DNA of 64,000 nt from a virus (IMGVR_UViG_3300009508_000011:124001-188000); one strand, 5' to 3'; positions 5,976-64,000 are shown, numbered from the stretch's first letter. Notes: generated by a model not told the origin, from the sequence alone. Numbers and translations are program-made.

Positions 5976-6473
5976 TTAATCTTCGTCGCCTTCGTTATCG
6001 TTGTCTAACGAATCGAATGCTTCTGTTTCATCAGCTTCCGACTCTTCATCGATAATGTAAAACTTAACGGAGATGTTGTACAGTCCCATATCTTTAATCA
6101 GACCAAAGGAATGTGAATGCGGTGGCTGCTTAGCTACTTCTACTCCGTGTACATCCGTAGGTTGGATATTCACTAAGAGTACGTTATCACCATAAGCAAT
6201 TTTGACATCACCATTGTTGAACTTGGTCTTCCACGTCTTCTCGTCGAAGTCTATTACGGCTTCAACCATTTCATCGTAGAGTTCTGGTAAATCATCACCA
6301 TGTACCAAATCAAGCCACATGTCCTCAACTGACTCTGGACACGCTTCTGTAACAAAACTATATACGCCAGCTGGTACTGGCACGATAGCATCTTTGTTAT
6401 TATCAAAATCTTCACCCTTATAAAAGCTAAGTATAAAGGCGGTGTTAATACTTTGTTGTTCTTCGTCCGACAT
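5976..6473 (-). CDS. Acidic unknown protein, 165 aa
   Basis: The start has an AAAGGA site and ATG. The protein is strongly acidic throughout, with a C-terminal tail of about 25 residues that is almost all Asp/Glu (EESEADETEAFDSLDNDNEGDED). The middle has short beta segments (VKIAYGDNVLLVNIQPTD). Acidic phage proteins of this type can be DNA mimics or inhibitors of host DNA-binding proteins, but nothing here proves that. It has its own terminator downstream and a terminator upstream, so it may be a single-gene unit. Confidence 0.65.
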   Translation of the reverse strand: MSDEEQQSINTAFILSFYKGEDFDNNKDAIVPVPAGVYSFVTEACPESVEDMWLDLVHGDDLPELYDEMVEAVIDFDEKTWKTKFNNGDVKIAYGDNVLLVNIQPTDVHGVEVAKQPPHSHSFGLIKDMGLYNISVKFYIIDEESEADETEAFDSLDNDNEGDED

Positions 6474-6502
6474 AACGTGTTCCTTTTAATTGTACGTTAT
6501 TG

Positions 6503-6532
6503 AAAAAAATAAAGGAGGACCGAAGTCCTCCC
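6503..6532 (-). terminator. Rho-independent terminator
   Basis: On the minus strand GGAGGAC-TTCG-GTCCTCC is followed by TTTATTTTTTT, after the gene ending at 6555. Confidence 0.85.
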
Positions 6533-6554
6533 CTACTCTTGCAGGTAATAAACC

Positions 6555-7025
6555 TTACTTAGCCATACCGGCGAAGTGAGACTTAACTTTAGCTAGTGCG
6601 CCAGATGGAGCACAGCTTTGAGTTTTGTGCTTAACAACTAAATAGTTTTGACGGGTTTCTTTAGTTGCAGGTGCACCATTACGGCCAGGGATTGTTACTT
6701 CGCGAGCACGGTCCATTGAGGCAGCCATTTTGTCACCGAAGAACTTAACCGCAGATGATGCAGCTTTAACGTCTTTACTTTCGCCGAAGATGTCTTGAGC
6801 CATTTCACCAGTTGCATAACCAAGAGCGGCTAACGTAACCTTTTCTTCGTCTTTAAAGCCTTTAGCCATTTTGGCAGTCATGCCTTCAGGAAGATTTGCT
6901 TCAAATACAGATTGTATTGCTTTTTGGTCTACGTTGATGATGCCTTCACCAGCATGGGTCATGTGCTTACGGAATTCTTCTGCGCGGGCTACTACGTTTG
7001 CTGGTACTTGATTTTCATTTGACAT
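6555..7025 (-). CDS. Unknown helical protein, 156 aa
   Basis: The start is supported by AAAAGGAC seven bases upstream. The protein is predicted to be largely helical (VVARAEEFRKHMTHAGEGI, AALGYATGEMAQDIFG, AASSAVKFFGDKMAASMDRA). It ends in a basic segment with KHKTQSC and KVKSHFAGMAK. I see no catalytic motif. It is a single-gene unit: two promoter-like sites lie in the 164-bp upstream gap (a class I site at 7182-7154 and a class II site at 7125-7099) and a strong terminator follows. Two promoters and a private terminator suggest high or temporally distinct expression, as for an abundant virion or DNA-associated protein. That is inference. Confidence 0.7.
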   Translation of the reverse strand: MSNENQVPANVVARAEEFRKHMTHAGEGIINVDQKAIQSVFEANLPEGMTAKMAKGFKDEEKVTLAALGYATGEMAQDIFGESKDVKAASSAVKFFGDKMAASMDRAREVTIPGRNGAPATKETRQNYLVVKHKTQSCAPSGALAKVKSHFAGMAK

Positions 7026-7098
7026 AATGCTGTCCTTTTATTTCTCATTGATTAAAGATTATTAATATACATTCGAATGTATAGAGTAAGTTCTCTAT

Positions 7099-7125
7099 GC
7101 ACTAGGATGATATGTGCGTGAAATT
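7099..7125 (-). promoter_or_regulatory. Class II promoter-like motif, copy 1
   Basis: Read on the + strand: CACTAGGATGATATGTGCG then TGAAA. It shares at least 18 of 24 positions, without gaps, with copies at 30910-30933 and 50953-50976. All three lie 35-80 bases upstream of a minus-strand start codon (here 7025). Confidence 0.5.
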
Positions 7126-7153
7126 ATCTTAACTCCACTTATAGCCTAGTGTA

Positions 7154-7182
7154 CATATAAGAGTTTGTGTGTGTATTTTTTT
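7154..7182 (-). promoter_or_regulatory. Class I promoter-like site for the gene starting at 7025
   Basis: On the minus strand AAAAAAATAC (7182-7173) is followed by exactly 15 bases and then TATG (7157-7154). It lies about 130 bases upstream of the start codon. Confidence 0.6.
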
Positions 7183-56031: not shown

Positions 56032-57564
56032 TTGACTAGTCAATACCAATACCCATACGACCCGACAGGCACTGCGCCCGAAAATGTCGTTACGGATTTA
56101 CCACATCCGCTTACCCCGGTACAGGGTAAGGGTTACTCTCTAATCGTTCCTAAAGCTGGTCCATTCTTTAAGAAAGATTTCAAACTTGTACATAAATCAA
56201 GTGGTAAGATACTTACTCCAGACGTGGATTATGTTTTCACTCACTTGGTCATGGATTTATCACATGCTTTACAGCTCCACATATATGGCTCTGTGACAGT
56301 GGTAAACCAAAGAATTATGGGCGACGTCGTTCCAGTATACCGCACCATTGGTGGAGAGTATGTACTGGAAGAAGATAAATTCGCACAGTATGCAATCCAC
56401 CTTTTGGAAAGTGATGGTGCATATCCGTGGGATAAGTTAACAGATATACCTGGTGAGTTTCCACCAGACCGTCATGAGGTACCTTTGGGTACTACTGGCG
56501 GTCACGATGAACTGATAGCGGCTATTCGTCAAATCAGTCTTGGTGGCGACCACATGCATGATATCTCTAACATTCGTCACTTGGATGACAGACTAAGTAA
56601 TAAGTTGGATAGTAACGGTAGTTATAAAATCCTAACCGATGCTAAGTTACATATTCAAGGTATCTTTACTGGTAGCGTTCAGTGTCGTTTACCTAAGGTT
56701 AAAACACGCTGTTTGATAAAGGCAAAGATTCAAATTACTGAAGGTAACGAGGTAAGTACACTAGAAGTTTCCGGTAGCATAAAGGCATACAACGATGGGG
56801 TCATCCCAGAGAAGTGGAGTAATATTAAAATTACCCCAGCCTATAGCTGTTGGGATGGTGATGTATTCATCACTTACGATAGTGAGCACTACCCTGTTAT
56901 TATCTTAGGTAAGGACAAAGACTGGAACGATGCCCATATCTCAATCATCGAATACTTCACGGTTAACCCTGAAGAGATAGAAGGTGAGATTAATCCTTTC
57001 CGTGTTAGCATGGCCTCTTCATTAGCTGGGTTACAATATACCAACACTAATGACGAAGGACTTATACTACTACCTGCTACTACAGAAGGTGAGTTATCAA
57101 ATGTTATCAATCGTCGTTACTTTGGAGTTATGCCTGAGGGTCTTTACCATGGCTTTAGTATAACCCAGACAGCAGTTGATAAGATTAGAGTTGGTATTAA
57201 TACCGAAAGACACTCTGCTGTTATTTACGATGGTCAGGAAGCGGCTACTATTGTCCTAGACAAAGATGCTCAAATCTTAACCGTTAGTGAACCACAGTAC
57301 AGTGCTATCGTGTTGGAACTTGTTCCTGTCGGCGAGGTAGGTGACCCTAGAATCATGGTTGATTTACCAGATAGAGAAGCACAGATTCGTCTTGTCCATA
57401 CCAACTCTGTTACCGATAACATGTTAATTATTGGTGAAATTAACTGGCCTGCCAACGAAGCAGAGTTAACCACTGCCCACTTGTCTTACGATAATCGTCA
57501 GAATGCTCAATGGAACGCTGGCACAATACTACCTATAACATCAGAAGTTGTATTCCAAGGCTAA
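56032..57564 (+). CDS. Tail fibre-type or baseplate virion protein, 510 aa, TTG start
   Basis: The start is TTG at 56032, seven bases after an AAAGGAG site. The first 200 residues have a mixed domain (YDPTGTAPENVVTDLPHPLTPVQGKGYSLIVPKAGPFFKKDFKLVH...DVDYVFTHLVMDLSHALQLHIYGSVTVVNQ). A His-rich link follows (GGDHMHDISNIRHLDDRLSNKLDSNG), then a beta-rich remainder of about 300 residues. The pattern is like tail fibre or baseplate proteins of large myoviruses. It is the first of a + strand fibre group. No ligand is inferred. Confidence 0.65.
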   Translation: MTSQYQYPYDPTGTAPENVVTDLPHPLTPVQGKGYSLIVPKAGPFFKKDFKLVHKSSGKILTPDVDYVFTHLVMDLSHALQLHIYGSVTVVNQRIMGDVVPVYRTIGGEYVLEEDKFAQYAIHLLESDGAYPWDKLTDIPGEFPPDRHEVPLGTTGGHDELIAAIRQISLGGDHMHDISNIRHLDDRLSNKLDSNGSYKILTDAKLHIQGIFTGSVQCRLPKVKTRCLIKAKIQITEGNEVSTLEVSGSIKAYNDGVIPEKWSNIKITPAYSCWDGDVFITYDSEHYPVIILGKDKDWNDAHISIIEYFTVNPEEIEGEINPFRVSMASSLAGLQYTNTNDEGLILLPATTEGELSNVINRRYFGVMPEGLYHGFSITQTAVDKIRVGINTERHSAVIYDGQEAATIVLDKDAQILTVSEPQYSAIVLELVPVGEVGDPRIMVDLPDREAQIRLVHTNSVTDNMLIIGEINWPANEAELTTAHLSYDNRQNAQWNAGTILPITSEVVFQG

Positions 57565-57723: not shown

Positions 57724-58812
57724 ATGACAGTACAAATTCGCGTGAAAACTGGTTTGGAAGCTAACCGTCTGGCATATACGCCTGCATTAGGTGAACTTCT
57801 TGTAACCACAGATACTCGCAAAATCTACGCTGGTGACGGCGCTACCGCTGGTGGTGTTGGAATCGGTGCAAGCTGTGAGTTAGTTGCAGACCAAACAGCC
57901 ATGCTTGCTTCTAAAGCAATGCCAGGTGATTTGGTATTCCGTTCTGACCTTGGTCATGTGTTCGTATTGGCTGGTGCCGATGCTACAGTTCTTGCCAACT
58001 GGATTGACACAGACCTTACTACTGCGTCTGACGTCGGTCTTGGTAATGTTCAAAACTTCGGAATCAGCGATTCAGTTGACGAAGACGTTTCTGGTCAATA
58101 CGCAAGTTCTAAAGCAGTTTACACTGCTAACCAACGTGCTATCTCAGCAGAAAACAATGCTGTTGCATATGCTGACCAAGTTAAAGCTGACTTGTTAGGT
58201 GGAGCACCTGATGCTGCACTTGATACTCTTCTTGAGCTAGGTGCTGCCATCACTGATAACGACAGTGAAATTGCTGGTATCGTTTCTGCAATAGCAACTA
58301 AGTTGGATATCACTACGTTCGATGCATTTACTGCACGTACAGATAACCCACATGCTGTTACTAAAACTCAAGTTGGTTTAGGTAACGTAGAAAACTACGG
58401 CATCACTGATTTGGTAACTGAAGATGTTTCAACTCTTTACGCATCTGCTAAAGCTGTTAAAACTGCATACGACATGGCCGCTCTTGCTCGTTCTGAATCT
58501 TTGGATTCTCAACAGTTAGAAGGTAAGTCTCTTGCTGAAGTTATCTCATTGGCACAAACTGGTCTTGCTACCGATACTAACTTACAAGCTCACATTACGG
58601 ATACTGCTAACCCGCACAACGTAACTAAAGCACAAGTTGGTTTAGGTAAAGTTGAAAACAAAACAGTTGCTGAAATCTTAGCATCTGATGCAGTAACTTT
58701 AGCTTCTACTGATGCGTCAGAAAGCATTGCTACTACTAACTTTGTTCAAAACAAATTAGTTGACGACAAATACCTTAAAGACGGTGATGTTCTTGACGGC
58801 GGTAGCTTCTAA
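57724..58812 (+). CDS. Tail fibre protein with Mtd-N-like head and VGLGNVxNxxxTD repeats
   Basis: AAGGAACC precedes the ATG. The 362-residue protein starts with a particle-attachment domain (residues 1-45: RVKTGLEANRLAYTPALGELLVTTDTRKIYAGDGATAGGVGIG), matching the N-terminal motif of major-tropism-determinant-like fibres. Two or three tail-fibre repeats follow (DVGLGNVQNFGISDSVDEDVSGQYASSKAV, NPHAVTKTQVGLGNVENYGITDLVTEDVSTLYASAKAV, NPHNVTKAQVGLGKVENKTVAEILASD). The C-terminus is a short AGA-type coil. The role would be host receptor binding or a fibre shaft. Confidence is high on motif grounds. Confidence 0.85.
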   Translation: MTVQIRVKTGLEANRLAYTPALGELLVTTDTRKIYAGDGATAGGVGIGASCELVADQTAMLASKAMPGDLVFRSDLGHVFVLAGADATVLANWIDTDLTTASDVGLGNVQNFGISDSVDEDVSGQYASSKAVYTANQRAISAENNAVAYADQVKADLLGGAPDAALDTLLELGAAITDNDSEIAGIVSAIATKLDITTFDAFTARTDNPHAVTKTQVGLGNVENYGITDLVTEDVSTLYASAKAVKTAYDMAALARSESLDSQQLEGKSLAEVISLAQTGLATDTNLQAHITDTANPHNVTKAQVGLGKVENKTVAEILASDAVTLASTDASESIATTNFVQNKLVDDKYLKDGDVLDGGSF

Positions 58813-58918: not shown

Positions 58919-59539
58919 TTAAAGTTCCAACGTATCTAGAATGGTGCAAATCTTCTTAGTCCACGTTTCATTCTTATCGGCACCAATGACTAATAACTCA
59001 TCTGGTTTAAACCAACCGTACCAATATAGCTCATCTTCCACTGGGTTAGGCATTAGGTCTTCTTGGTCTAGATGTACCACGGTAACCAATGCAACATATT
59101 GTCTATCGGTAATGGTTTCATCAGCGGCTATTGCATATTCTAGAGTTTCAGATTTAATAATCTCTACATCATCACCAATTACTACTTCTTCTTCAATTTC
59201 ACGTGAAGATGCTTTTAAGATAGCTGCCTCTATATCTATAATAGAATTGTTGTGTTGTAGGTCGCGTAGCTCAAAGTGTCCACCTACACCTAACGTTATC
59301 TTACCGCGCAATGCTTCGTGTTGATGGTCGTCCCTTCTCATAAAGGCTGCCACCTTACCATGACAAACAAAAATTGTAAGGGGCATAAGTTTACGATAGT
59401 TAAAATCGTTTAGTAAAGACGCTCTACGTTTTAAAACGATATGGTCGGAAAGTTTACTTGGTAACCTAACAATGCCATCTGTTCTTTCAGTAACTATTGA
59501 TGCGGGAATAGCTACTATGTGTTCTTGATATTCTATCAT
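58919..59539 (-). CDS. Nudix hydrolase family protein
   Basis: The 206-residue protein carries a Nudix box: ...EAAILKASSREIEEEVVIGDD, with REIEEE at about 113-118, and a Gly-rich loop GVGGHFELRDL upstream (84-94). The spacing from the Glu before the box to Arg is eight rather than seven, and a 10-15 residue insertion lies between the Gly loop and the helix, so it is a divergent member. It probably hydrolyses a nucleoside-diphosphate derivative; the substrate cannot be told. CGGAAG precedes the ATG. It is the only minus-strand gene among the fibre genes. Confidence 0.85.
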   Translation of the reverse strand: MIEYQEHIVAIPASIVTERTDGIVRLPSKLSDHIVLKRRASLLNDFNYRKLMPLTIFVCHGKVAAFMRRDDHQHEALRGKITLGVGGHFELRDLQHNNSIIDIEAAILKASSREIEEEVVIGDDVEIIKSETLEYAIAADETITDRQYVALVTVVHLDQEDLMPNPVEDELYWYGWFKPDELLVIGADKNETWTKKICTILDTLEL

Positions 59540-59712: not shown

Positions 59713-60072
59713 ATGATTATTTTGGACATCATTACGTCTACCGAGAGTGGACGTAACAACTTTATACCTGAAGAGGGACAGTTCCTAGTCTGTACCGATT
59801 CTGAGAAGTTGTATCTAGGTGATGGCATAGCCGTGGGTGGAATACCAACCACTAAAAAAGCGGTTAGATTAGGTGTAGGTCTCGATGAGTTAGGACTCAA
59901 AGAAACCATGGAATCACACTACGTCATAGCCATTCCTGAAGAAAAACGTACTGATGAAACAGAAGGCAGTATGTTCCTTGTAACCGATGAGAGTCAAGAA
60001 CCTATGTTCGGCTCCGCAAAAGAACCGAATGCTGACGATTATCTCGTTGGTGATATCGTGTTCGTATACTAA
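59713..60072 (+). CDS. Small Mtd-N-like protein, 119 aa
   Basis: GGAGAG precedes the ATG. Residues about 5-48 (IITSTESGRNNFIPEEGQFLVCTDSEKLYLGDGIAVGGIPT) match in pattern the N-terminal attachment domain of the fibre at 57724 (Gly-x(1-2)-Leu..., (C/T)TD(S/T).K(I/L)Y.GDG.A.GG). The C-terminal half is polar (EGSMFLVTDESQEPMFG, then DYLVGDIVFVY). It ends 14 bases before the Thr/Ser-repeat protein, so it may link that protein to the particle. No other function is known. Confidence 0.65.
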   Translation: MIILDIITSTESGRNNFIPEEGQFLVCTDSEKLYLGDGIAVGGIPTTKKAVRLGVGLDELGLKETMESHYVIAIPEEKRTDETEGSMFLVTDESQEPMFGSAKEPNADDYLVGDIVFVY

Positions 60073-60086
60073 GTGGGGAGTTGATA

Positions 60087-63000
60087 ATGTCACAGTTAGA
60101 TGTTTTAATGCGCGACCAGCATTCCCTACTGCGTGTACGCAAGATAATGCAGAAGCAAACAGACGGTGCGTGGAATACCATGTACTCTCTAAGTAACGAT
60201 GCTGAAGTTTCTACTGCATGGGAAACTGGTGTGCAAACCCAGACCCAATGGGATTCTATTTTCACCACTAGTCACAGCACAATCAGTGCGTTTGATACTG
60301 ACGTTGTTACTAGTAAACAAACAGGCACGGCTTGGATTACTGACCGAACTACCGACGCTTCTAGAATAACTGCTGCTTCTACTCAAACAGAGTGGACTAC
60401 CAGTCGTATTACAGAACACGCTACTTCTCAGGATACCCAAACCAACTGGAACATTCAGACGACAACTTCTTTTGTTACTGACCAAACCACACAAACCGAT
60501 TGGACGTCTAATCGTCAAACTGACTATAGCTATTCTAAGTCAACTACGACCAATTGGACTACTGTTGTGGATACAACTTTAACTACCAATAGAAGTACAA
60601 CGACTCAATGGACGACGTCTCACTCGTCAGCTACTATGTGGACTACAAGTCACAGTACTGATTATAATACGTCACATACTACTACTACCTCATGGAATAC
60701 CAGTCAGGCTACCAACAAGTCAACTACGACCCAATGGACTACTGCCCGCGATACAAGTAATAGTACTTCCAAGTCTACCAATACGGTATGGACAACTGGA
60801 CACGCAACGACTAGAACCACTACGGTTAATAAAAATACCGCAGGTACTACGTCACGCAGTACTAGTAGGTCTACCTCGACTGCGTTCAATACGTCAGTAA
60901 CAACTAGTCACAGTACTACAACTCTGTGGGGCACTGCTGTAACAACAACGTTCAGTACTAGTAGGTCCACGAGTACTAGTTATGGAACATCGTATAATAC
61001 AAGTAGAAGTACAGCTACCAGTTTCAATACTTCACACAGTACGACAAAGACCGCATCTAGAAGCACAACAACTTCTTACAATACTACCTGGGGAACTTCT
61101 CACGGTACGTCTAAGTCTACTTCGTATAGTGCAAGTACTAGTTGGACTACTTCGCATGGAACGTCTAGAAATACCTCTTATAGTGCTACTACTACTTGGA
61201 GTACTGCTAAATCAAAGACAACGTCTAGGTCTACGACAAAGTCAAAGACAACGTCTAGGTCTACGACCAAAGCAGCTAGTAGAACCACCACATGGACAAC
61301 TAACTATTGGACATTTTGGGGTGAGGATTGGGATGGTGCTGGTGGTTCAAGTAGACAGACAAGTAGAAGTACTTCTGGTACTACTTCCTGGAATTACTCT
61401 GCAACAACTAGTTTCAGTACTAGTTACGCTGCCAATACGTCGTATACAACCTCGTATTCAGCTAATACTAGTAGGTCTACGACCAAGTCTCGCTCTACTT
61501 CTTTAACAACTAGTTATAGCACTAGTAGGTCTACGACCAAGGCACGTACTACTAGCTACACTACTAGTTACAATACGTCTAAGTCTACGTCTAAATCTAC
61601 TAACACTTCTTGGGGTTACTCTGCCAATACTACGTATGGTACATCCAAGAATACTGTAACTACTTTTGGTACTTCCCACACCACTTCCAAGAGTACAAAT
61701 ACTTCTTGGAATACGTCACGTGGTACTACTAGAAACACGTCTAGAACCACAAGTACTGCGTATGGAACTACGTGGGTAACGTCTAAGAGTACTAACACTA
61801 CTTATAACACGACTTACGCCACAACTAAAGTTACTACGTCTAGTTGGTCAACTGGGTACACTACTAACTATGCCACTAACAAGTCAACTACGACTACGTG
61901 GACTACGACGAAGAGTACCAACGTGGTGACTGGTAAGTCAACAGATACTACATGGACAACATCGTGGGGTACGTCTAAATCCACTACGACTACTTACGCA
62001 ACTGCTAAGGATACTAATTACCAAACATCGTTCGGTACATTAACTAGTTATACGACTTCCAAGTCTACTACTACCTCCTTTACAACAGTTCGTGAGACTA
62101 ACAGAACCACAAGTCAGGCAACTAACACTGCTTGGTCGGTAAGTTCTACCACTAGTGTTGCAATGAGTACCTCGACCACCACGTCTTGGGACACAAGCAA
62201 GTCTACCTCTGAAGCTAGAAGTGGGACAACCACAACTGCATGGACTACATCGTATAGTACTAACGTGCAAACAACTATCATGACTACAACAAACTGGATG
62301 ACTTCATTCCAGCGTCAGACTGATATTGATGCAGGTAAGACAACTACAACAAACTGGGTCACTCAAGTGGCAACAACCACAAGTTGGACTACGTCTTATA
62401 GTACCGGTGTATCAACGGTTAAGTTTACCAATTCAAATTGGACGACTTCGGCCAATACCACTAAAGAGGTTGGTGAACTTACTACGTCGGCAACGACTAC
62501 GTGGACAACCATGCGTAATACCCAAAGTGTGTTCAATACCGCAGGTGATGCTTCTGTGGCTACGGATACTTCTTGGACTACCGCTAAATCTACGTTAACT
62601 GTTTGGTCAACGAATACTTCAGCGACTACTCAAACAACGTGGTCAACTGATGGTACCATGACCACTAGCGTTGAAATAACTTGGAATACTACCGAATCTC
62701 GTAATACAGATTTGGGTGCCGGTACTATGATTAGTACTGACTTCTTAGTTAGCACAAGTCGTTATAGTGACAGACAAACTGATGGCTCGTTCAATACTTC
62801 CGTATCCACTGCAACTGCATGGGCTACTGATACAGTTAAGTCAACGACAACATCGTGGCAAACTACTATATCAACCACCACTACGGTAGCTGGTAATGTA
62901 CAAACTACGACTACGTGGACTACGTCTTACAGCACAACTGCTGATGTTACGTATACTACAAATGCTGACTACACTACCCAGTGGACTACTGCTAGACAGA

Positions 63001-63158
63001 CAGATGTATTACATGCTACGTCGGTTCTAACATCGACTTCTTGGAATACTACTGATTACTACGGTGCAGAGCGTACTACATCACAAGTTGCCTCAACAGC
63101 TTGGATAACTGGTGAAGAACGTCAAACAACGTGGGTTACTAGTCGAACTACTTCTTAA
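60087..63158 (+). CDS. Thr/Ser/Trp tetrad-repeat protein, likely tail adhesin or fibre
   Basis: The frame opens at TTG 60081, but the ATG at 60087, six bases after GGGGAG, is the start. The 1023-residue protein has a short polar N-terminal domain (about 1-50). Almost all of the remainder is a four-residue pattern (T/S)(T/S)(x)(x), in which positions 3-4 alternate aromatic (W, Y, F), basic (R, K, H) and N, e.g. TSRSTSTSYGTSYNTSRS. Its only break is YWTFWGEDWDGAGGSS near residue 410. There is no signal peptide or membrane segment. The gene lies in the fibre/host-recognition module after a small Mtd-N-like protein, so an elongated tail adhesin is likely; the fold is unknown. Similar TS-rich repeat proteins occur in other large phages, but none is characterised to my knowledge. 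Confidence 0.75.
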   Translation: MSQLDVLMRDQHSLLRVRKIMQKQTDGAWNTMYSLSNDAEVSTAWETGVQTQTQWDSIFTTSHSTISAFDTDVVTSKQTGTAWITDRTTDASRITAASTQTEWTTSRITEHATSQDTQTNWNIQTTTSFVTDQTTQTDWTSNRQTDYSYSKSTTTNWTTVVDTTLTTNRSTTTQWTTSHSSATMWTTSHSTDYNTSHTTTTSWNTSQATNKSTTTQWTTARDTSNSTSKSTNTVWTTGHATTRTTTVNKNTAGTTSRSTSRSTSTAFNTSVTTSHSTTTLWGTAVTTTFSTSRSTSTSYGTSYNTSRSTATSFNTSHSTTKTASRSTTTSYNTTWGTSHGTSKSTSYSASTSWTTSHGTSRNTSYSATTTWSTAKSKTTSRSTTKSKTTSRSTTKAASRTTTWTTNYWTFWGEDWDGAGGSSRQTSRSTSGTTSWNYSATTSFSTSYAANTSYTTSYSANTSRSTTKSRSTSLTTSYSTSRSTTKARTTSYTTSYNTSKSTSKSTNTSWGYSANTTYGTSKNTVTTFGTSHTTSKSTNTSWNTSRGTTRNTSRTTSTAYGTTWVTSKSTNTTYNTTYATTKVTTSSWSTGYTTNYATNKSTTTTWTTTKSTNVVTGKSTDTTWTTSWGTSKSTTTTYATAKDTNYQTSFGTLTSYTTSKSTTTSFTTVRETNRTTSQATNTAWSVSSTTSVAMSTSTTTSWDTSKSTSEARSGTTTTAWTTSYSTNVQTTIMTTTNWMTSFQRQTDIDAGKTTTTNWVTQVATTTSWTTSYSTGVSTVKFTNSNWTTSANTTKEVGELTTSATTTWTTMRNTQSVFNTAGDASVATDTSWTTAKSTLTVWSTNTSATTQTTWSTDGTMTTSVEITWNTTESRNTDLGAGTMISTDFLVSTSRYSDRQTDGSFNTSVSTATAWATDTVKSTTTSWQTTISTTTTVAGNVQTTTTWTTSYSTTADVTYTTNADYTTQWTTARQTDVLHATSVLTSTSWNTTDYYGAERTTSQVASTAWITGEERQTTWVTSRTTS
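60240..63150 (+). repeat. 12-base tandem coding repeats in the Thr/Ser protein
   Basis: The region is a long array of four-codon units (ACT/ACA/ACG/ACC, AGT/TCT, x, x) with varied codon choice. Local exact copies exist: a 26-base block at 61212-61237 recurs at 61242-61267 with 30-base spacing. ACTAGT recurs often. Synonymous codon variation is wide, which argues for protein-level selection or recombination mixing, not recent slippage alone. Confidence 0.8.
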
Positions 63159-63186: not shown

Positions 63187-63207
63187 TTCGTTTAAAGGAT
63201 GGTTAAA

Positions 63208-63975
63208 TTGAATGACGTGACAAATAACCGTGCCTCTGTCTTCAGTCAAGTTTGCGGAAAGAGAGGTATTGAATTATCAACTTCCCACAGAGTAAATACT
63301 GGAGTATACGGTAAAGGCAAAGATTTGATTTATGGGGAACTACTAGGTGGGGTGATACTATTACCTAAGTCTCTAGGCCTTCGTATTAGAACTTTGAATG
63401 AGGTTATGGACAATAGGGAACACGATGATTTCATCAAAGACCTTATTCCGGTACATCAAGAAACAACTAACAATGCCAAGGTTGTTGTTCTACCGGAACG
63501 TTTTGTCTTGGAAATGACCCCTAAGTGTTGTAATCAAATAGTTGATTGGGCTGCTGGTGAACCATGTTTCGTTATACCTATGGGGGATACCCCTCCTGAA
63601 CTAATTGCAGGACTCCATAAGACAGGTGACAATTTTACTATACTATCAACAAATACTGATAGACATGCCCTAATGGTTAGGTCCAAGGAAGCTATGTTCA
63701 GTACAGTAGACGCATTGGGTATTGTGGCTGTTTGGTACAATAAACCTTTCTCTTTTTTGAAAGAAGGTGGTAAACATGACTTTGGTCCGTTTAGACTAAT
63801 AAATATTTTATTAGCTAATGACCTAACCAATAGACGTATACGTCTAAACAATTTACTTAATTCGGAACTTGGTGGGTTTTTTTTACCAACAAAAAATGGT
63901 ATTAATGAACTTAACAAATTCCTAGATTATTACGAGGATAGACATGGAAAATTTACCAATACACATCGCACTTAA
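63208..63975 (+). CDS. Unknown protein, 255 aa, probable TTG start
   Basis: An ATG at 63199 has AAAGG directly against it, while the in-frame TTG at 63208 has eight-base spacing from AAAGGA; TTG is used elsewhere in this phage. The protein is mixed, with beta segments (VNTGVYGKGKDLIYGELLGGVILLPKSLGLRI) and two Cys pairs (PKCCNQIVDWAAGEPCFVIP). No domain is recognised. The last 32 bases overlap the next gene. Confidence 0.6.
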   Translation: MNDVTNNRASVFSQVCGKRGIELSTSHRVNTGVYGKGKDLIYGELLGGVILLPKSLGLRIRTLNEVMDNREHDDFIKDLIPVHQETTNNAKVVVLPERFVLEMTPKCCNQIVDWAAGEPCFVIPMGDTPPELIAGLHKTGDNFTILSTNTDRHALMVRSKEAMFSTVDALGIVAVWYNKPFSFLKEGGKHDFGPFRLINILLANDLTNRRIRLNNLLNSELGGFFLPTKNGINELNKFLDYYEDRHGKFTNTHRT

Positions 63976-64000
63976 CATGACTAGTGCATGTAACATGGAT
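63944..64000 (+). CDS. Start of a gene cut by the right window edge
   Basis: ATG at 63944 with GAGG six bases upstream and 19 open codons to the end (MENLPIHIALNMTSACNMD). It overlaps the previous gene by 32 bases, a spacing seen elsewhere in the window, which supports it as a real coupled gene. Product unknown. Confidence 0.45.
   Translation, partial: MENLPIHIALNMTSACNMD

Follow-up and report, generated by a model that had tools for sequence, protein, structure and literature searches.

The window, by which we mean the whole 64,000-nucleotide stretch of DNA that was analysed, belongs to a virus record of 206,117 bases (G000:C1), from a large, marine-type phage, and carries a tail-fibre locus near its end. 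The locus includes a virion structural protein with the N-terminal domain of the phrog_2163 family (56032..57564, + strand; phrog_2163 match 5e-43), a tail-fibre protein with Mtd_N and Phage_fiber_2 domains (57724..58812, + strand; both Pfam matches above cut-off, phrog_11029 tail protein 9e-25) and a small Mtd_N-like, attachment-type protein of 119 aa (59713..60072, + strand; Mtd_N match in Pfam with E 1.1e-4, short of the gathering cut-off). Directly 3' of this small gene lies repeat protein A (60087..63158, + strand), which comprises 1,023 aa: a non-repetitive N-terminal part of about 45 aa and then a Thr-register ('TS') repeat up to the C-terminus. Further 3' follow p258 (63199..63975, + strand; 258 aa), a radical-SAM/SPASM-like protein of 319 aa that starts in the window (63944..64000, + strand) and runs on to G000:C1:188903, a second repeat protein of 1,464 aa, B, just beyond the window, and an endolysin-type gene of family GH108. 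Two other large phages have A, p258, radical-SAM and B in the same order, with protein identities of 53–70%. Mtd is a tropism determinant. The placement of A in a fibre module, proposed earlier in a sequence-only reading, is upheld by the Mtd_N proteins 5' of A and by its paralogue B, which opens with the virion-structural domain phrog_2163 (2e-40) that is also found in the protein at 56032..57564; we infer that A is part of the virion fibre, where it may act as the adhesin of the sequence-only reading or as a shaft or coat. In other phages, repeat genes lie directly 3' of tail-fibre-like genes as well.

The reading frame of A is open from 60081 (TTG) to 63158. The ATG at 60087 is most likely the true start, since GGGGAG lies just 5' of it and the homologue at locus L015 begins at the same place; the N-termini align from the same residue (MEQLDVLMHDQHS in A, MSQLDVLMRDQHS in the homologue). 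The 1,023 residues contain no Cys and no Pro, and the counts from residue 46 onward (T 35.1%, S 17.7%, L 1.0%, I 1.2%, E 1.3%) agree with the Thr/Ser-rich, Leu/Ile/Glu-poor composition that the sequence-only reading had described. That reading had also held that a frame disrupted in close relatives would speak against the protein; the frame is intact in both relatives found, up to the contig limits (one copy ends at a contig edge), with a dN/dS of 0.14–0.26, and the gene is under strong selection at the protein level. Pfam and PHROGs gave no match for A. The NCBIfam model NF033849 (serine-rich protein) reached 19.1 bits against a curated cut-off of 650, and assignment to this family was rejected as the match is composition-like and far under the cut-off.

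The repeat follows a strict register, best written as Omega-s-T-s, in which Omega stands for W, Y, F, H, K or R and s for a small residue. From about residue 46 of A, 95% of the Omega–Omega spacings are even (0 of 1000 shuffles), and 71% of all spacings are 4 or 6, compared with 17% for 500 shuffled sequences (maximum 26%). At a distance of two residues from an Omega, 80% of the sites are Thr, as against 20% of the directly adjacent sites, a distribution matched by 0 of 1000 shuffles, and Omega-x-Thr is found at most Omega residues. The even Omega spacing together with Thr at ±2 implies that the underlying period is two residues, as in a beta strand. A would thus form an extended strand with Omega and Thr alternating on one face and S/T/N/G/A on the other. 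Aligned with its homologue in contig 3300020375_000001, A keeps its even-register Thr in 98% of 216 cases (Ser in 1%) and its odd-register Thr in 51% (Ser in 23%), so that, in these sequences, Thr in the even register is hardly ever swapped for Ser. This strict choice of Thr over Ser may reflect a packing rule rather than an acceptor rule. The tetrad (T/S)(T/S)xx of the sequence-only reading is real, although it is better described by Omega-s-T-s, with Thr and not Ser at the fixed site and a period of two. Its "only one clear break" does exist, at residues 408–423 (WTFWGEDWDGAGGSSR; 61308..61355, + strand), but the wording was slightly generous, as the pattern loosens past about residue 690. 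The break lies in a segment of A (about 61256–61413) that has 92% DNA identity with the gene of repeat protein B.

How widespread is this repeat class? BLAST of the repeat region of A against 50,697 phage records gave no match; its low-complexity filter probably masks the repeat, and degenerate DNA patterns were adopted for that reason. One such pattern, K-[ST]-T-T-T-[ST]-W-T-T-[ST], returned 46 stretches in IMG/VR, mostly within long repeat ORFs of about 300–1,700 aa, which are often paired in tandem and mostly have no radical-SAM motif close by. About 110 repeat ORFs of the A type occur in viral contigs. Over the 116 ORFs that pass a filter on composition and parity, of which a few are false (e.g. 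opposite-strand or bacterial ORFs), the median even register holds 92% T and 1% S, and the median odd register 34% T, 32% S and 22% N+G+A. Among 84,980 genomes of bacteria and archaea, the same pattern, in one motif variant, found no true repeat; an occurrence in bacteria was rejected because the 29 pattern matches were all due to chance (other frames or unrelated proteins). No profile library searched contains the repeat, and the literature on radical SAM with tail fibres and on threonine-rich tail-fibre repeats yielded nothing on it.

The repeat gene has a regular neighbour. We call it MEMF after its first residues: a protein of about 300 aa that belongs to PHROG family 26179 (phrog_26179), for which no function is known. 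A search that started from MEMF found a repeat ORF directly 5' in 75 of 78 loci, and the other three have only 60–215 nt of 5' sequence; the search kept the 80 loci nearest one query, 78 of which were analysed, so that the count samples mainly one large clade. Divergent checks on the linkage came from KVP40, Lullwater, Cr30 and loci L041, L064 and L074. Starting instead from the repeat, tblastn located MEMF at 25 of the 27 repeat loci with room downstream, the two exceptions being L060, which belongs to the clade of the window and has p258 in the place of MEMF, and L030. Pairs of repeat and MEMF are present in GenBank as Caulobacter phage Lullwater gp41/gp42 and Vibrio phage KVP40.0254/0256, and Cr30 gp254/gp255 is the same pair with a weaker repeat; all these genes are annotated as unknown or hypothetical. 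As a matter of gene linkage, it is close to certain that MEMF belongs with the repeat. The phage of the window has an intact copy, MEMF2 (G000:C1:86432-87277), which has a GT8-like gene as its neighbour and lies about 97 kb from the fibre locus. MEMF2 carries KPHP and is 82–84% identical in two relatives. Further glycosyltransferase genes adjoin MEMF or MEMF2.

What kind of protein is MEMF? Its AlphaFold model, built from 43 sequences, has a pLDDT of 90.1 and a pTM of 0.87, and the best full-length PDB match of the model is KpsC (8fux; Foldseek probability 1.00, TM 0.46, 309 columns, E 1.3e-3), at about 10% sequence identity. The other fold matches are mostly GT-B sugar enzymes, such as the polysialyltransferase 5wcn, GtfA and SdgB, the latter two being protein O-glycosyltransferases. 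The two lowest E-values belong to GPCR entries, which presumably match through their glycogen-synthase fusion partner, in line with a match to 2bfw. A diverse MEMF profile gave a single PDB match at E<=10, again KpsC (6mgb, E 0.24), with the alignment falling on the HP motif. This motif, H161 and P162 in MEMF, is invariant in the 43 sequences and is aligned to the HP of KpsC; KPHP, LPG(S/T)N, NKY/DKY and SE are invariant or nearly so among MEMFs of 20–30% identity, and D46 and D94 are conserved; enzymes of the KpsC/WbbB type have their catalytic nucleophile in a QxxxD motif. Pfam gave no Capsule_synth match for MEMF. The HP motif is common to beta-Kdo and CMP-sialic-acid transferases (PMC10148158, PMC2169525), and KpsC is a retaining beta-Kdo transferase (GT99 and relatives; PMC10148158). 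Each of these lines of evidence is weak to moderate singly, and they were obtained separately and agree. MEMF is likely a glycosyltransferase of the GT-B type with an HP motif, similar to KpsC, as judged from its predicted structure and conserved motifs.

The fold match to KpsC and the HP motif led us to look for CMP-sugar genes. PF02348 matched in the phage genome of the window and in two relatives. KdsB (TIGR00466; 210 bits, cut-off 155) and a KpsF/KdsD isomerase (TIGR00393; 338 bits, cut-off 204), whose genes overlap, are present in all three phages of the clade. A search of the other phage records, which include several fragments and the complete genomes of KVP40, Cr30 and Lullwater, turned up neither gene, so that the phages with complete genomes would need CMP-sugar of the host. 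KdsA was found in none of the phage records searched, and the host must therefore supply it. The phage kdsB and kpsF genes may serve host metabolism only.

At the fibre locus itself the place of MEMF is taken by p258, a diverged member of the same family. Its kinship comes from profile comparison: against the diverse MEMF profile (A5), hhalign gave a probability of 98.8 (E 5e-17, 238 columns), whereas column-shuffled, reversed and unrelated controls reached at most 1.0; an AlphaFold model of p258 (three sequences, pLDDT 32) was set aside. p258 has four invariant Cys and lacks KPHP and LPGSN, with other sequence (e.g. DTPPEL) at the KPHP and LPG(S/T)N sites in three phages, and on these grounds we class it as a diverged relative and not as an active enzyme. 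The p258 and radical-SAM genes overlap by 32 nt, and the overlap is the same in three phages. The radical-SAM protein matches Pfam Radical_SAM above cut-off (7e-12) and a SPASM domain just below it (E 0.0016), and has a CxxxCxxC motif whose Cys 16, 20 and 23, along with four further Cys, are invariant in the three phages. Its best NCBIfam matches are RiPP maturases, PapB first with 80.7 bits against a cut-off of 340; no curated maturase model was passed, and all scores are far below the cut-offs.

Taken together, the reading we prefer, and hold to be somewhat more probable than not, is that A is a scaffold in the virion whose Ser/Thr repeat is glycosylated by the MEMF family, with a radical-SAM step added in this clade. 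A would serve as scaffold in the phage fibre itself or in a fibre coat, and its repeat would be one very long beta-type strand pattern in which Thr alternates with aromatic or basic residues on one face, with small residues (S/T/N/G) on the other. The sugar may be carried by the fixed Thr or by the variable S/T of the other face; the fixed Thr could serve packing and the variable S/T could form the acceptor face. The Ser/Thr-rich repeat would be the acceptor of a dedicated cytoplasmic MEMF glycosyltransferase before assembly. As p258 has no HP motif, glycosylation at this locus would need MEMF2, encoded some 97 kb away, and MEMF2 is probably the active enzyme in the clade of the window. The donor would be CMP-Kdo, which phage KdsD and KdsB would help to make while the host gives the rest of the pathway. 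p258, possibly a dead MEMF that has become an adaptor, would bind the repeat and hand it to the radical-SAM enzyme, with which it would be co-translated, for a second modification, and the product would be a long, stiff, sugar-coated virion fibre. The strength of these parts differs. Fibres with the repeat are probably sugar-coated, because over a hundred phage genes share the register rule and are nearly always found beside a gene that resembles a sugar-attaching enzyme. That the repeat is the acceptor of MEMF seems, on balance, the better supposition; for the sugar, Kdo is a reasoned guess; and the radical-SAM enzyme may act on the repeat. Of the two suggestions made in the sequence-only reading, that of a heavily glycosylated surface is the better supported, since a gene for a KpsC-like glycosyltransferase accompanies the repeat, with the role of acceptor as qualified above. 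A more far-reaching version, which we consider doubtful, would make the repeat proteins a phage-wide fibre class with a new fold, in which the Thr ladder is a modification scaffold that carries Kdo-type acidic sugars added by its own KpsC-like enzyme family, kdsB and kdsD work for the virion and not for host metabolism, and in one clade the radical-SAM enzyme acts through a dead-glycosyltransferase adaptor to give a doubly modified fibre.

Could MEMF act on the fibre without modifying it? Chaperone genes classically lie directly downstream of fibre genes, and MEMF is found directly 3' of the repeat gene almost without exception. A fibre-assembly chaperone of glycosyltransferase descent would leave the repeat unmodified, its Thr/aromatic pattern being structural as in a long beta fibre or silk-like shaft; the Thr-only choice in one register fits beta packing, and p258 retains the MEMF kinship without the catalytic-type motifs. 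However, the near-invariance of KPHP, LPG(S/T)N, NKY/DKY and SE at 20–30% identity is what would be expected for catalysis, the clade that has no local KPHP retains a separate KPHP copy (MEMF2, at 82–84% identity) and CMP-Kdo genes, and more glycosyltransferase genes are found next to MEMF or MEMF2. We therefore regard a chaperone as unlikely. The sugar might also be destined for the host, as phage glycosyltransferases often alter host serotype: MEMF or MEMF2, with KdsB and KdsD, would then change sugars of the host envelope (e.g. Kdo on LPS) so as to prevent superinfection or attachment to debris, and the fibre would recognise the sugar. The closest fold to MEMF is indeed that of a capsule enzyme, KpsC, which builds the Kdo linker of capsules (PMC10148158), and a fibre and a receptor-modifying enzyme could be co-inherited. 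Yet what MEMF is linked to is the repeat gene itself, in phages that differ greatly in genome type and host, and a Thr/Ser-rich repeat is the form expected of a protein acceptor, which makes a target in the host envelope quite unlikely.

The remaining question is the weight to be given to the radical-SAM enzyme. As the main modifier it would introduce cross-links or epimers along the repeat (e.g. at aromatic-x-Thr) to yield a rigid RiPP-like fibre, with p258 as recognition partner. Its gene lies between both repeat genes and has the 32-nt overlap with p258 in three phages, RiPP maturases with PapB first are the top NCBIfam matches, the four extra invariant Cys are as expected for an auxiliary cluster, and most Omega residues offer an Omega-x-Thr. 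Against this, a radical-SAM gene of the family was found in only 3 of the 17 records searched (none was found in KVP40), and thus the repeat does not need the enzyme. Related radical-SAM genes are also part of tail modules that have no such repeats, in Fusobacterium phage phiKSUM and in prophage-like contigs, so that the target may be another tail protein, and the maturase-model scores all stay far below their curated cut-offs. We consider the radical-SAM enzyme as main modifier distinctly improbable. Radical-SAM chemistry as the reason for having the repeat at all was dropped as a general explanation, as most repeat phages have no such enzyme.

The glycosylated scaffold that we prefer has several partial parallels. 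Gram-positive bacteria have the serine-rich repeat glycoproteins Fap1 and GspB with GtfA/GtfB (PMC6973325, PMC5207161). As in that system, a long Ser/Thr-rich repeat surface protein would have its own dedicated, here putative, O-glycosyltransferase, and GtfA is among the fold matches of MEMF. In contrast to Fap1 and GspB, the genes described here form a phage module, the repeat combines bulky residues with a strict register of Thr, the enzyme is nearer to KpsC than to GtfA, and accessory Sec export and a cell-wall anchor are not expected in a virion. With KpsC/WbbB (GT99 and relatives) MEMF shares the HP motif; KpsC is its best full-length fold match and the one PDB match of its diverse profile, and the clade phages carry CMP-Kdo genes. 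MEMF differs in a TM of 0.46, an identity of about 10% and the missing Pfam match, and the acceptor of KpsC/WbbB is a lipid-linked sugar or O-antigen whereas that of MEMF would be a protein. Mycobacteriophage virions are glycosylated, with glycans on capsid and tail-tube C-termini, according to the work cited in PMC12619734 (ref. 45). They use phage-encoded glycosyltransferases for structural proteins, as is proposed here, and differ from the present arrangement, with its dedicated repeat protein, in where the glycans are placed. PapB-type ranthipeptide maturases resemble the radical-SAM protein in the CxxxCxxC motif, a SPASM-like end and a gene beside a repetitive candidate substrate; unlike such RiPP systems, the locus has no short precursor peptide, and scores are far below the curated cut-offs.

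Bacterial repeat surface proteins with a dedicated glycosyltransferase and glycosylated virions are thus already known, whereas the repeat class, a KpsC-like enzyme at a fibre locus and their combination are not in the libraries searched. The register rule, the partner enzyme family, the radical-SAM gene, protein B and the breadth of the family were also absent from the sequence-only reading. If our preferred reading is true, a widespread module of two unannotated genes in environmental phages and in the well-known isolates KVP40, Lullwater and Cr30 would gain a function; the reading would also predict a chemical coat on the fibres of the phages that bear the module, and offer a testable reason for phage Kdo-activation genes. 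The register rule, with Thr almost never replaced by Ser on one face and bulky residues at even spacing over hundreds of residues, is a sequence-to-structure puzzle in its own right, and a virion repeat protein would be an unusual neighbour for radical-SAM chemistry. In KVP40.0254/0256, Lullwater gp41/gp42 and Cr30 gp254/gp255 the module has the same two-gene order, repeat then MEMF, with repeat proteins that are much shorter (116–215 aa), and in other phages methyltransferase-like and Hint-like genes lie between repeat genes or are fused to them.

Within the window's phage, the DNA of the break segment that interrupts the Thr-register repeat is 92% identical between repeat protein A (window 61256-61413) and the second such protein, B, encoded downstream of the window (G000:C1:191282-191439). 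The counterpart segments in locus L015 differ in sequence (QTVTGGAFDEGPVSR and a variant). This resembles a displayed loop undergoing gene conversion inside each phage. The L015 locus also retains an opposite-strand gene of the fibre module (window 58919-59539 (-); L015:3220-3912 (-)), whose product we take from its sequence to be Nudix-like. In locus L014, repeat protein B is split between two frames (about 6350-7170); the DNA there is repetitive, and the split may be an artefact of sequencing or assembly.

What might modify or process these repeats? All three phages of the clade keep their own genes for KpsF/KdsD and KdsB, a pair that serves CMP-Kdo synthesis (G000:C1:103035-104803; L012:3035-4803 (-)). 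MEMF2, the second copy of the KpsC-like putative glycosyltransferase family, with its KPHP motif intact, is followed by a GT8-like gene (L011:6432-8252), an order identical in both relatives. Elsewhere, the position held by the radical-SAM gene in this clade, between two tandem repeat genes, is occupied by a gene whose methyltransferase-like product has a Hint-like C-terminus (L058:4321-5373; L036:8088-9149; L034; L052), a further candidate modifier of the repeat. In further phage contigs, Fusobacterium phage phiKSUM among them, genes for tails or fibres have radical-SAM enzymes as neighbours (L017:7863-11292, with three consecutive enzymes; L016:6769-9071; L027:8971-9780; L075 and L077, about 8001); association with tails may be a broader theme for such enzymes.

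Repeat proteins of a different clade carry a C-terminal Hint/intein-like domain (ECIVEG...GILTHN; L045:6080-6652; L028:5267-5815 (-); also L032, L035, L046 and L071), which scores under the cut-off for Pfam Hint_2/Intein_splicing and suggests fibre self-cleavage or ligation. A short Thr-register repeat fused to Pfam Gly_rich_2 (3e-14; L041:5949-7145 (-)) resembles a shaft bearing an adhesin-type tip, and a 1,701-residue repeat protein (L037:4590-9695) has a Cys-containing non-repeat domain inserted mid-array.
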